Source of the DNA: an uncultured Ureaplasma sp.
Lineage (GTDB): Bacteria > Bacillota_I > Bacilli_A > Mycoplasmatales > Mycoplasmoidaceae
Assembly (NCBI GenBank): GCA_902791895.1
Contig: CADAXN010000002.1
Location: 1-42,622 of the forward strand
Direction of reading: 5' to 3'
DNA: 42,622 nucleotides
Positions 8,878 to 18,959 of the stretch are shown piece by piece. The notes below the pieces were generated by a model, which saw only the letters and a program-made list of their open reading frames with translations, was not told the origin of the DNA and did no database searches. The position numbers were made by a program, and so were the translations under genes. Within the stretch, counting starts at the first letter, position 1, and every line of letters starts with the position of its first letter.

Positions 8878-9246
8878 CGTTTGTTGCAATGTAAGCCATG
8901 TTCTGTTGCGAAAACTCGCCGTCAATTATTTATCTACTTAAAGTGAACTTTAAGTCACAAAAAACAATTCAGTTCCTGTTCTTTGCGTTCCCTCACCATA
9001 ATTTAGGTTTCTTGCTTTAGGGGTTTACCGCGTTTCATCTAGAAATTTCTCTCTAGCTCGTCTCTGTGGCACTTTAACAAATTAGCAGCATGGAATCTTA
9101 GGATTCTTTAGCTAATAATTTCGCCGTCATAACACAAGTGTTATGCTGGGATTTATTTTTTGATCCCACTAAATCACTACACCCATCGCAGGATGTGCAA
9201 GCATGGACTTTCCTCTACTACAAAAATAGCAGCAATTGACCTTGCA
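8878..9246 (-). ncRNA. rnpB: RNase P RNA (type B)
   Basis: This is the catalytic RNA of ribonuclease P, which matures tRNA 5' ends. On the minus strand the universally conserved blocks appear in order: GAGGAAAGTCCATGC near the 5' end, AAGTGCCACAGAGACGA, AACGCGGTAAACCCC (the tRNA CCA-binding L15 region), a GAAACCTAAATT...GGGAACG block, and ACAGAACATGGCTTACA just before the 3' strand of P1. P1 can be drawn as TTGCAA with TTGCAA, and P2 as GTCAATT with AATTGAC. Both ends are approximate (a few nt). The gene has its own promoter and terminator. Confidence 0.95.
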
Positions 9247-9252
9247 AAGATT

Positions 9253-15658: not shown

Positions 15659-16384
15659 ATGAATTACTTAATTGATATAAGCTACGATGGTAATAACTAC
15701 CATGGTTGAAGCAAACAAAAGAACAATATTTCTATTCAGCAAACAATAGAAAAAGGTTTAAGCGATATTTACAAAAAGAAAATTGATATTGTTGGTAGTG
15801 GAAGAACTGATACCAAAGTTCATGCCGTTCACCAATACTTTAATTTTCATGAAGATAAAATTAACTTGTCTGTTGAGAAATTAAAGAATGCATTGAAATA
15901 TAAAATTCCAGTAGATATAAAGGTTAATAGTATTACAGTTGTTGAGAACAATTTTAATGCGAGATATGATGCTAAAAATAAGACCTATCTTTATTTGATC
16001 AACACTAATGAATTTGATTTGTTTAGAAATAATTATTTATTAAACTACAACAAGCCTATTAATCTTGATTTATGAAATCAATCTAAAGAATTGTTTGTAG
16101 GTACTCATGATTTCTTATCATTTAGTAAATCTGCACTATCTAACACTACTAGAACTATTAATGCAATTAAAATAGTAAACAAAAAAGGTTTAATTGAAAT
16201 TTACATTAATGGTAATGGGTTTTTGAGAAACATGGTAAGGATGATAATTGGCAGCTTGATTGATTTAAATGAAAACAAAAAATCATTAGATGATATTAAA
16301 AGATTAATTAATAATCCAAAAAAAGGATCAGCTAATACTTTAGCTAATCCTTGTGGTTTATATCTTTATCAAGTTAATTATTAG
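15659..16384 (+). CDS. truA: tRNA pseudouridine(38-40) synthase
   Basis: It converts uridines 38-40 of the tRNA anticodon arm to pseudouridine; 241 aa, complete. The catalytic Asp lies in GSGRTDTKVHA (about residue 51). Other family stretches are the DISYDG start, RNMVRMIIGSLI and the C-terminal GLYLYQ. Its last 29 bases, including the stop codon, are repeated exactly at 18471-18499, so the 3' end of this gene is one boundary of the islet that follows. It is the last gene of the ecf operon. Confidence 0.95.
16356..16384 (+). repeat. 29-bp direct repeat, left copy (attL-like)
   Basis: This is identical over 29 bases to 18471-18499, offset 2115. It begins GTTTATATCTTTATC and ends with the truA stop codon TAATTATTAG. 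The flanking bases differ on both sides (G/A on the left, A/G on the right). It marks the left boundary of the islet. Confidence 0.9.
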
Positions 16385-16466
16385 ATTTATTAATTGAGAT
16401 TACAATAACAAGTATTTATTTTTAATATGCAATTTTAATATATAGTGAACTGCATTTGACTTAGTT

Positions 16467-16540: not shown

Positions 16541-16867
16541 ATGAAGAAATACAAAATCTATTCATCTATGAAAAATAAAAACTTAGTTGGTGATATTATT
16601 CAAGTTAAAAAAATTAAAGTTAATGGTGGCCAAGTTAGACCAACAACTAAAAAACAAAAATCAACAAGAGATTTGTTGATTGAGTTTATGGGCGAACAAA
16701 GAGAATTTAATACACGAATTGAAAAAGATATAGCAAATCTTAAGAATGATGTTAGTTCATTAAAGAAAACTCAAGATCAACAAAACAAACATCTTCAAAG
16801 AATTGATAGTAGATTAGATAGACAAGATGAACGTTTTGAAAATATCGAACATGAATTATCTATATAG
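16541..16867 (+). CDS. Coiled-coil protein, DUF16-like, islet gene 1
   Basis: Protein of 108 aa without a recognised enzymatic domain. The first 40 residues are basic (Lys-rich, KKIKVNGGQVRPTTKKQK). From about residue 50 to the end there is a charged heptad-rich helix (FNTRIEKDIANLKNDVSSL, then KHLQRIDSRLDRQDERF). The repeating RIDSRLDRQDERFENIE pattern resembles the C-terminal coiled coils of the DUF16 family abundant in Mycoplasma pneumoniae; that family link is by eye only. It has no signal peptide or membrane segment. It precedes the RHH gene by 12 nt. Function unknown. Confidence 0.7.
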   Translation: MKKYKIYSSMKNKNLVGDIIQVKKIKVNGGQVRPTTKKQKSTRDLLIEFMGEQREFNTRIEKDIANLKNDVSSLKKTQDQQNKHLQRIDSRLDRQDERFENIEHELSI

Positions 16868-16879
16868 GTTTAATTAATT

Positions 16880-17140
16880 ATGGCTAAGAGTGTATTTAAA
16901 TTTCCAAATAGGGATAATTATAAAGCTGTTTATCTAGAAAAAGATGTATTTGAAAAATTAGATAAAACAGCAACAAGATTAAAAATGACAAAGTCCAAGC
17001 TACTTCGCCATTGCTTTGAGAAGTATATAGCTGATGAGGAATTAGCTTCGCAACAAAATGAATTACTTAAATTATTTACTGAAACAGTTAGCAATTTAAT
17101 TAAACATAATGAAAAAGGTTTCGATGAACTTAAAAACTAA
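16880..17140 (+). CDS. Ribbon-helix-helix DNA-binding protein, islet gene 2
   Basis: Protein of 86 aa. A short strand (YKAVYLEKDVFEKLD) is followed by two helices with the turn KMTKSKLLRHCFEKYI, the layout of CopG/Arc/MetJ ribbon-helix-helix proteins. The C-terminal 30 residues form a charged helix for oligomerisation. Such proteins are dimeric regulators, often plasmid copy-number repressors or antitoxins. A role as regulator of this islet, for example at the palindrome 16467-16486, is inference. No strong ribosome-binding site is seen. It lies 32 nt before the NERD gene. Confidence 0.7.
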   Translation: MAKSVFKFPNRDNYKAVYLEKDVFEKLDKTATRLKMTKSKLLRHCFEKYIADEELASQQNELLKLFTETVSNLIKHNEKGFDELKN

Positions 17141-17142
17141 TT

Positions 17143-17163
17143 AAAGAAAAGAAGTAGGTTTTT
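17143..17163 (+). repeat. 21-bp purine-rich repeat, copy 1
   Basis: The block starting AAAGAAAAGAAGTA matches 20 of 21 bases with 17917-17937. It lies between the RHH stop and the NERD start and is embedded in a CTAATTAAA ... TTTAATTAG inverted repeat (17137-17145 / 17162-17170). It may be a processing, translation-control or recombination signal. Confidence 0.5.
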
Positions 17164-17172
17164 TAATTAGAT

Positions 17173-17877
17173 ATGTGGTGAATAATTTTAATTTCAATTC
17201 TTATACCAGCAATAAGTGTTGGTACTTTTGTTGTCTTAATAATTATTTCTAAAATTAAACATCAGCATGGTGATTATAATGATGGTGGAGGAATTCATAT
17301 TGGTGCACATCAACATGTATCTTTTTTTACACCAGCTAATGACAGAGCTGGAATAGTTGGTGAAAAGAGAGTGAATTATCATCTTAGACCACTTTTAAGA
17401 AATGATGAATATTTACTAACAAATTTACTATTACCTCTAAGAAATGGTGAAAAAACTGAAATTGACGCTGTCTTAATCTCTCGAAAAGGAATTTTCTGTA
17501 TTGAAATAAAACATTGAGTTGGTCATATTACTGGGAATGAAGAAGATGAATATTGAACTCAAAAATATGATGATCCTAATAAAGAAGATAAAAAACATGA
17601 AAATCCAATTTGACAAAATGATTTTCATTGCACCATTATAAAAGAAAAGCTAAATATTTATTGTCCTATAAACAATGTTGTTATTTTTTATAGATTAGAG
17701 TATGGTCGAAGAATTAATTCCAAATACATCTATACTGTTAGAAAGTTTAGAGACTATTATCGTAGTCTAGATAGCAATGTTATACCAGAAAATTCTCTAA
17801 AAATGATTTATCAAAAATTAGAACCATATATAGCCACTCCTGAAGAATTAGAAAGACATAGAGAGGCTTATAAATAA
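17173..17877 (+). CDS. Membrane-anchored NERD (nuclease-related) domain protein, islet gene 3
   Basis: Protein of 234 aa, recognisable only when its UGA codons are read as Trp (residues 3, 115, 128 and 147). One N-terminal membrane helix (residues 4-27) is followed by a His/Gly-rich linker (QHGDYNDGGGIHIGAHQH) and then a NERD domain (about 60-190). Conserved points are GEKRVNYHL (Glu64), LLPLRNGEKTEIDAVLIS (Asp98) and IFCIEIKHW (Glu111, Lys113). The Asp plus ExK arrangement is that of the PD-(D/E)xK nuclease fold. The NERD family is widespread and its substrate is generally unknown; a role in DNA processing or defence is inference. Start ATG at 17173; its ribosome-binding site is weak. Confidence 0.8.
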
Positions 17878-17916
17878 TAAATGAGTTTTTATTTATGTAA
17901 ATGTCTCCATTAGTGG

Positions 17917-17937
17917 AAAGAAAAGAAGTAAGTTTTT
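17917..17937 (+). repeat. 21-bp purine-rich repeat, copy 2
   Basis: Matches 17143-17163 with one difference (A for G at position 15). It lies between the NERD stop and the next islet gene, so the two copies bracket the NERD gene. A short TCCA/TGGA hairpin lies just before it. Confidence 0.5.
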
Positions 17938-17983
17938 ATTGCAAAATCGATATATATACTCATTATGGTAGGAGGTAAAATAT

Positions 17984-18331
17984 ATGAATAAATTTAAAGT
18001 TAGTAATAGAATACTAAATGTAAAGATGGAAATTTTGTTTATGACTAATATTAACAGAGCAAAATACAAAAATTTTATAGATATTTTGAATAAACAAATT
18101 AGTTTAAAAAAAATTAACAGTTTTGATGATTTTAGATCATCATTATTGCAAATTAAAGAAAAATTTGAAAATGAATTTAATAAACTTGATAAGAGTACAT
18201 TTAATGATTTAAAAAGTGATTTTGTTATAAATTGCAATTATTCTTTATATATTGATCGAATAAAAGAATTAGAAAATGAATTTGAATTCATTGGTTGTAG
18301 CACGTTTATTGAAGGTGTAGATTGATGTTAA
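17984..18331 (+). CDS. Hypothetical protein, islet gene 4
   Basis: Protein of 115 aa that I do not recognise. It is soluble and mostly helical by composition, rich in Lys, Phe and Asn (KKINSFDDFRSSLLQIKEKF), and ends in EGVDWC with a UGA Trp. It has the best ribosome-binding site in the islet (TAGGAGG, 8 nt before the ATG) and a possible promoter TATACT about 30 nt upstream, so it may be expressed apart from the NERD gene. No membrane segment, signal peptide or catalytic motif is evident. Confidence 0.65.
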
Positions 18332-18361: not shown

Positions 18362-18367
18362 TATAAT
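18362..18367 (+). promoter_or_regulatory. -10 box of the islet RNA gene
   Basis: TATAAT preceded by a T-rich stretch and a TTGCAC 22 nt further upstream. It is not followed by a usable ORF. Confidence 0.5.
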
Positions 18368-18373
18368 AGTATG

Positions 18374-18456
18374 AAGGTTAGGGAACGGATGCTGCCATCA
18401 ACAACAGTCCAAGTATAAAGTGAAATGTTTCTCAACAATGGGGAACATTTTTTATT
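18374..18456 (+). ncRNA. Predicted small structured RNA in the islet
   Basis: A stretch of about 85 nt with its own -10 box and ending in a strong terminator. It can form a first helix GGA-(TG)-CTG / CAG-TCC (18389-18408 region, 2-nt bulge) and a second of 11 bp, AAATGTTTCTC / GGGGAACATTT (including two T-G pairs), with loop AACAAT, followed by TTTATTT. The local base composition is clearly more GC-rich than the flanks. It does not match SRP RNA, tmRNA, 6S RNA, a T-box or any riboswitch I can recall. A 15-codon ORF inside begins upstream of the predicted transcript start. Ends are approximate. Confidence 0.5.
18423..18456 (+). terminator. Terminator hairpin of the islet RNA
   Basis: 11-bp stem with a 6-nt loop followed by TTTATTT. 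It also ends any transcript reading through the islet genes. Confidence 0.65.
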
Positions 18457-18470
18457 TATAGTGGTGTATA

Positions 18471-18499
18471 GTTTATATCTTTATCAAGTTAATTATTAG
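18471..18499 (+). repeat. 29-bp direct repeat, right copy (attR-like)
   Basis: Perfect copy of 16356-16384. On the minus strand it supplies the last codons and the stop of the membrane-protein gene that follows (PNN and TAA). Confidence 0.9.
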
Positions 18500-18959
18500 G
18501 TTTTTCTTTTTTCTTACGTTCACTTGTTGACAATCTAATGTGGTAAGTCATTGAACCTAAGAAAATACTTACTGGGTAAACAAGTGCAGTTGAAAATAAA
18601 GCATAAATATTAAATATATCTTGATTAATTACACAATTTACAATTGCACCAATAATTAAACCTAATAATAGTACAATGCATTTTGTGCAGTAAAGGAGGA
18701 TACTAATAACAACAATTCCTCCTTTACGACTTTGTTTAAAGGTTTTAAAGATTAAGTTGTTAAAAATAATTCCCAATACAAATGCTGCAATAATAAAAGG
18801 AATATTTAATAAACAGCCATATAGAATAGTGTAGTTATTATAAACCGCACTCAAAGTGAGTGTTATTAAAAAAGATACACCAATCAAAATTGAAAGGTAT
18901 ATCAAAAAGAAAATATTTACTCTTTCTGAAAATATATTCTTTTTAGTTTGTTTTGTCAT
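18489..18959 (-). CDS. Four-helix membrane protein, possibly AtpI-like
   Basis: Integral membrane protein of 156 aa with four hydrophobic helices (about 16-40, 45-68, 82-105, 117-138) and a lysine-rich C-terminal tail (SERKKKEKPNN). Its ATG overlaps the upp stop (TAATG), so it is translationally coupled to upp. In many Firmicutes and mycoplasmas the gene after upp in the ATP synthase region is atpI, a four-helix protein of similar size; the identification rests on that context and topology, not on a sequence motif. No atp genes follow here. The stop codon lies inside the 29-bp repeat, so the gene is intact despite the adjacent islet. Confidence 0.6.
   Translation of the reverse strand: MTKQTKKNIFSERVNIFFLIYLSILIGVSFLITLTLSAVYNNYTILYGCLLNIPFIIAAFVLGIIFNNLIFKTFKQSRKGGIVVISILLYCTKCIVLLLGLIIGAIVNCVINQDIFNIYALFSTALVYPVSIFLGSMTYHIRLSTSERKKKEKPNN

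Follow-up and report, generated by a model that had tools for sequence, protein, structure and literature searches.

A putative membrane-tethered NERD nuclease with phage-linked relatives in a probably integrated gene islet of a rumen mycoplasma-like bacterium

SNIPE is a membrane-anchored nuclease, of the topology predicted below for a protein of a rumen mycoplasma-like bacterium, that cuts phage DNA at injection (PMC13190303). SmdA of Staphylococcus aureus is needed for cell division and, according to its authors, is without a number of the residues that are best conserved in NERD (PMC9040797). NERD also recurs as a domain in the defence proteins PglW, MkoA and MAD6 (PMC10952713).

The NERD protein described here is encoded in an islet, a small block of foreign genes. 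It resembles SNIPE in having one N-terminal transmembrane segment, an N-out/C-in orientation and a cytoplasmic nuclease, these being assigned to the islet protein by prediction and the charge rule only. It differs from SNIPE in that the GIY-YIG nuclease and DUF4041 are absent from it, no Pfam domain other than NERD and no recognition domain such as DUF4041 being found at E<=1, and its nuclease belongs to another superfamily; by this comparison the islet protein would be SNIPE-like in mechanism without being a member of SNIPE. With SmdA it shares the arrangement of one N-terminal transmembrane segment and a cytoplasmic NERD domain, but SmdA is a core staphylococcal division protein in which conserved residues are lost, whereas the islet protein is accessory, keeps D98, E111 and K113, and is not the product of a core division gene at a fixed locus. 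It matches the NERD region of PglW (BREX type 2/Pgl), MAD6 (MADS) and MkoA (Mokosh I); these are large multidomain proteins with profiles of 612-1607 positions, whereas the islet protein, at 234 aa, corresponds to the NERD part only. Its scores, 44.7 against 460 bits for MAD6 and 32.2 against 990 for PglW, are too low for membership, and it covers only positions 33-103 of the 1607 of MkoA.

The islet at the 3' end of truA

The window, that is, the whole 42.6-kb stretch analysed, is the entire contig C2 of genome G000, which uses genetic code 4 and is assembled as 496 kb in 36 contigs (82% complete). Between truA and an atpI-like gene lie four coding genes, all on the plus strand when open reading frames are called under code 4, and then a small RNA gene, so that the islet of ~2.1 kb contains genes for a coiled-coil protein (CC), a putative ribbon-helix-helix (RHH) protein, the NERD protein and ORF4 in addition to the small RNA (Table 1). 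An earlier, sequence-only reading had placed the first three genes at the right coordinates; it missed ORF4 and the small RNA gene, and its interval ends at 18331 because ORF4 ends there. Elsewhere in the window, a class B bacterial RNase P RNA is found at 8887-9247 on the minus strand (271.6 bits).

Table 1. Features of the islet and its flanks (window coordinates).
Feature	Position	Strand	Description or basis
truA	15659..16384	+	left flanking gene
Left direct repeat (att-like)	16356..16388	+	final 29 bp of truA with stop, plus 4 bp
CC, 108-aa coiled-coil protein	16541..16867	+	member of a modular family, often in several copies; motif KKQKSTRDLLIEFMGEQREFN
Putative ribbon-helix-helix protein, 86 aa	16880..17140	+	sub-threshold Pfam RHH_1
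Direct repeat left of NERD gene	17143..17163	+	21 bp, 20/21 identical to 17917-17937
NERD protein, 234 aa	17173..17877	+	Pfam NERD, AlphaFold2, homologues; D98, E111, K113, E64
Direct repeat right of NERD gene	17917..17937	+	21 bp, 20/21 identical to 17143-17163
ORF4, 114-115 aa	17984..18331	+	strong AGGAGG ribosome site; matches no known family
Small RNA -10 box TATAAT	18362..18367	+	sequence; TATAAT similarly placed before the G019 copies
Small RNA gene	about 18368..18455	+	one 44-nt unit and intrinsic terminator, hairpin 18422-18451
Right direct repeat	18471..18503	+	second copy of truA 3' end; overlaps end of atpI-like gene
atpI-like gene	18489..18959	-	right flanking gene

The repeats that flank the islet are identical at 32 of 33 positions, 29 of them consecutive, lie 2115 bp apart and constitute the sole exact direct repeat of >=20 bp in the window. 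When the flanks are rejoined at the repeat, truA (241 aa) and the atpI-like gene (156 aa) are intact and convergent. In the relative G031 the gap between the two genes is only ~32 bp; G016 and G007 have another gene in that place. Direct repeats that duplicate the 3' end of a gene are what is expected of a site-specifically integrated element, and because the truA 3' end is duplicated and the flanking genes are intact after rejoining, integration most likely occurred at this end. We infer the mechanism, since no integrase lies within the islet and the assembled genome, 82% complete, has no match to PF00589; the element would now be without, or would never have had, an integrase of its own.

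The 21-bp repeats on either side of the NERD gene lie near the ends of a block common to the window and G019 (17160-17926), which starts 3' of the RHH gene, and the NERD gene may thus have been inserted separately. As judged from these sequences, the islet appears to have been assembled as a patchwork from pieces that species have exchanged, and not to form a single system.

The NERD protein and its relatives

The Pfam NERD profile (PF08378) matches residues 60-172 with 93.9 bits (cut-off 22.1; E 1.1e-26). The residues Asp98 and Glu111-x-Lys113, which the earlier reading had described as intact, are at those positions and are invariant across 22 aligned homologues, as are G106-I107-F108, G117 and N144, with E64 nearly so. 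In an AlphaFold2 model built from 16 sequences (pLDDT 89.2), a helix at 2-32 is followed by helix-strands-helix-strand, the strand-helix order of a PD-(D/E)XK core, in which strand 94-103 holds D98 and strand 106-113 holds E111 and K113; the structure prediction that had been proposed as a check thus gave a fold with its nuclease residues in place rather than one lacking an active site. Matches of the model to the PDB are all weak (best E 0.027) and include the PD-(D/E)XK enzymes Bax1, Can2, McrC, HamA and Cas4, and two BFVD entries match at E below 0.001, one of them named a siphovirus NERD protein.

The membrane tether proposed earlier also holds, as a single N-terminal hydrophobic helix. 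Because in five homologues this helix is preceded by no K/R residue and followed by 2-6 of them, the protein is predicted to be N-out/C-in, with the NERD domain facing the cytoplasm. The model allows the protein to be described with confidence as a PD-(D/E)XK fold tethered by a single N-terminal membrane helix, and it is presumably active as a nuclease. Domain score, catalytic residues and fold all fit the PF08378 family, within which the protein differs in belonging to a distinct subfamily marked by a long motif, KGIFCIE-K-WVGHI-GN---EYW-Q-YDDP, and by an N-terminal membrane helix as a constant feature.

Of the 320 genomes of the order, 87 contain NERD relatives, and only five (G000, G019, G031, G101 and G111) give strong islet-type matches. 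Within the genus, full-length islet-type genes were found in three of 36 genomes (G000, G019 and G031), at different loci. When contigs were scanned, a single-sequence query returned none and an alignment query found relatives. Named relatives with 52-66% identity come from Bacilli or Bacillales MAGs of the rumen and gut, an Erysipelotrichaceae MAG and Metamycoplasma hyosynoviae, and the subfamily is one of rumen/gut Bacilli and Mollicutes. The earlier reading had regarded both RHH and NERD proteins as common on plasmids; plasmid matches of the NERD protein are only distant and partial, and the RHH protein has none. The genus also possesses a paralogue with a transmembrane segment and a NERD domain, whose position, between rnj and a sirtuin gene, is fixed. 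In G016, 132 bp of this gene (L005 1529-1660) are 85.6% identical to window 17488-17619, which suggests recombination between the fixed-locus and islet paralogues.

Close relatives of the islet gene are solitary (G019), situated in a phage-type cassette (G031) or carried as phage cargo. In the tree, the window and G019 copies group together (100/100), and the mollicute copy of G031 groups with two viral copies (99/92); the latter group adjoins rumen Bacilli copies, the wider grouping (91/82) not being firm. The viral copies are on L231 and L232, the only two viral contigs with the close subfamily. L231 (IMGVR_UViG_3300032007_000399) is a siphophage with the order major tail, tape measure, tail, holin, 117-aa gene, NERD, 117-aa membrane protein, 328-aa variable gene and serine integrases. 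L232 carries tandem large serine recombinases in the vicinity of the same 117-aa/NERD/117-aa genes, the next gene being different, and structural phage genes are absent from the stretch covered.

The G031 cassette is 91.5% identical to L231 in DNA over 2235 bp, extending through the 328-aa gene, and the tryptophan codons of its NERD gene are six TGG and no TGA (GC3 0.23). Because of this identity and the absence of TGA tryptophan codons, we conclude that on at least one recent occasion the NERD gene passed into Mollicutes from bacteria or phages that use the standard code. The window gene has one TGG and four TGA tryptophan codons (GC3 0.11), and the copy of the window and G019 is an older, adapted one. 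Between these two copies pN/pS is 0.40 at a dS of 0.6, as against 0.05-0.15 among phage-type pairs, which indicates that the islet gene is under purifying selection.

The right boundary of the G031 locus, 211 bp long, is also present in L132 and L133, two contigs of Bacilli. In rumen Bacilli the NERD cargo is bordered by recurring sequences of 61-211 bp that are 73-96% identical (L132 2380-2440 and 4641-4850; L016 8645-8855; L130 8247-8457), and the genes between them vary, like those of a cassette hotspot. In L130 a gene for a PDC-S26-like PD-(D/E)XK protein is present in the NERD neighbourhood. In L129 (3012-4636) an IetA-like AAA gene ends 20 bp 5' of an islet-type NERD gene, and the two possibly form a two-gene defence pair.

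The genes beside the NERD gene

The CC gene has a TATAAT box 4 bp 5' of its ATG, a position that suggests a leaderless mRNA. Its family occurs in 13 of the 36 genomes of the genus, often more than once per genome and with N- and C-terminal modules swapped, and the C-terminal 35 residues are identical in G016. In this behaviour CC resembles RepMP1/DUF16 of Mycoplasma pneumoniae, which are often multicopy coiled coils with exchangeable N- and C-terminal modules (PMC3472980), but CC has no match to Pfam DUF16 at E<=1, so that its earlier description as DUF16-like is confined to behaviour and membership in DUF16 is rejected; it differs further in that, in relatives, several copies are located behind a tyrosine-recombinase gene or what is left of one. 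In G031 a CC copy starts inside the 3' end of a tyrosine-recombinase gene, and other copies are located behind recombinase remnants; CC genes at or just behind such 3' ends or remnants have a common ATATAATATA promoter box (L071 2594-3582; L018 8186-8559; L065 1-400), as if recombinase and CC units shuffled together. In G016 (L066 75-4852) a CC gene is found immediately past an hsdS-hsdR-like type I restriction locus, named by eye. The CC pattern was not found in viral contigs.

The second open reading frame is real, and its assignment as an RHH regulator is a weak one: the RHH_1 profile gives 16.4 bits against a cut-off of 20.5 and a CopG chain matches at E 0.77, while sub-threshold matches from several libraries converge on residues about 17-57. 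The AlphaFold2 monomer, computed from three sequences, is all-helix with no strand and has low confidence (pTM 0.32). Convincing relatives occur in only three of the 320 genomes of the order (G000, G016 and G019), G019 retaining a fragment only (96-97% over 31 residues), and plasmid, phage and viral-contig matches are all absent, for which reason a plasmid origin is rejected. In G016:C22 the RHH gene also follows CC. Because the DNA identity over 288 bp spanning CC-RHH is 93.75%, against 74% protein identity for truA of the same two genomes, the pair was probably exchanged or converted recently between G016 and the window.

ORF4 has only marginal matches in the order. Over 94 bp the small RNA is 97% identical to one of the G019 copies, of which there are two, each made of two tandem units: one lies just 3' of the G019 NERD gene (L015 6711-6850, G019:C7) and the other between polC and whiA (L223 6901-7030, G019:C5). 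Rfam gave no match at its curated thresholds and nothing convincing beneath these; within the genus the gene was found only in G000 and G019 and not in the other 34 genomes, and the pattern was not found in viral contigs. An obligate partnership with NERD is rejected, the small RNA being absent from G031 and apparently, by eye, from the NERD flanks of Bacilli and phages. The tandem units, promoter and terminator resemble the layout of a type III toxin-antitoxin system, and the gene may encode an antitoxin RNA of this kind; against this, no toxin is adjacent, the G019:C5 copy is without one, and no Rfam family fits. A candidate H-type pseudoknot can be sketched by eye in each unit and was not counted.

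Function of the NERD protein

The NERD gene may be a phage-type accessory ('moron') gene for a single-protein, membrane-anchored PD-(D/E)XK nuclease. The N-terminal helix would keep the nuclease domain at the membrane's inner face; foreign DNA would most likely be cut there during entry, so that a lysogen would exclude competing phages or plasmids; the tether would at the same time keep the nuclease off the host chromosome. To this reading, a phage-derived accessory membrane nuclease that excludes incoming DNA, residing in an integrated patchwork islet, we assign roughly an even chance. It draws on the computed islet boundaries, on the family, fold and active site, and on the predicted topology, phage- and recombinase-linked relatives, transfer between lineages and constraint, with SNIPE as the experimental precedent for the principle and the NERD domains of known defence proteins as a further argument, and from these we infer catalysis, substrate, exclusion and a continued role of the mollicute copy. 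A role in DNA processing, exclusion or defence at the membrane had been guessed at the outset, and the guess gains support from relatives in phage and recombinase cargo, some of them near relatives of defence genes, the function itself staying conjectural. Against exclusion stand the small number of viral contigs, two, that carry the close subfamily, the division role of SmdA with its like architecture, the absence of a recognised recognition domain and of an integrase, and the age of the window copy, which, with its four TGA codons and low GC3, could have changed its role.

The phage location of the relatives would also suit a mere passenger, whose use to the phage itself lay in the turnover of host DNA, in recombination or in counter-defence, and which is neutral or decaying in the mollicute islet, as would the patchy distribution in the genus and the truncation of adjacent RHH pieces in relatives. 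We regard this as unlikely, because the reading frame is intact, the active site and membrane helix are retained, the pN/pS against G019 at that dS indicates constraint, and the gene is situated past the holin and near integrases, outside the phage replication genes. A housekeeping function like that of SmdA, in which a tethered NERD protein links membrane, nucleoid and division and is not a defence nuclease, is suggested by the identical architecture (PMC9040797) and by the TM-NERD gene fixed beside rnj in the genus. That paralogue is the better candidate for such a role, and the islet copy is an accessory gene that most relatives lack, that has been transferred horizontally, is borne by phages and retains D98, E111 and K113, where SmdA is without several conserved NERD residues; the explanation is distinctly improbable.

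The sequence-only reading had also seen a compact module in the neighbouring genes. In a true CC-RHH-NERD operon, RHH would repress or sense and CC would scaffold the membrane nuclease as one defence or toxin-antitoxin-like system, and the common strand, the gaps of 12 and 32 bp and the CC-RHH pair in G016 are consistent with this. A neighbourhood search in mollicutes, set beforehand as the test, found RHH adjoining NERD in the window only among the 320 genomes of the order; NERD is elsewhere solitary or has other partners, and the block common to G019 starts past RHH. Family searches of CC, NERD and ORF4 revealed no toxin family, nor is one present in any other islet protein, which is at odds with a type II toxin-antitoxin system. 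The three genes as one conserved system are therefore rejected for want of recurrence, and we hold such an operon to be very unlikely.

The exclusion reading could extend beyond this islet. Tentatively, and with clearly less assurance, standard-code rumen Bacilli and wall-less code-4 Mollicutes might have in common a family of single-protein NERD nucleases, carried by prophages, tethered to the membrane and not recognised before; its members would cut foreign DNA crossing the membrane, and it would have reached a SNIPE-like strategy independently with a PD-(D/E)XK enzyme. Standalone NERD proteins are widespread, and the sole functional study cited is that of SmdA, a degenerate division protein; a phage-linked, membrane-tethered subfamily that appears catalytically intact would therefore offer a clean test of the function of a solitary NERD nuclease. 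The recent transfer into code-4 Mollicutes took place by way of a rumen phage-type cassette, in a setting where TGA reassignment might hinder exchange.
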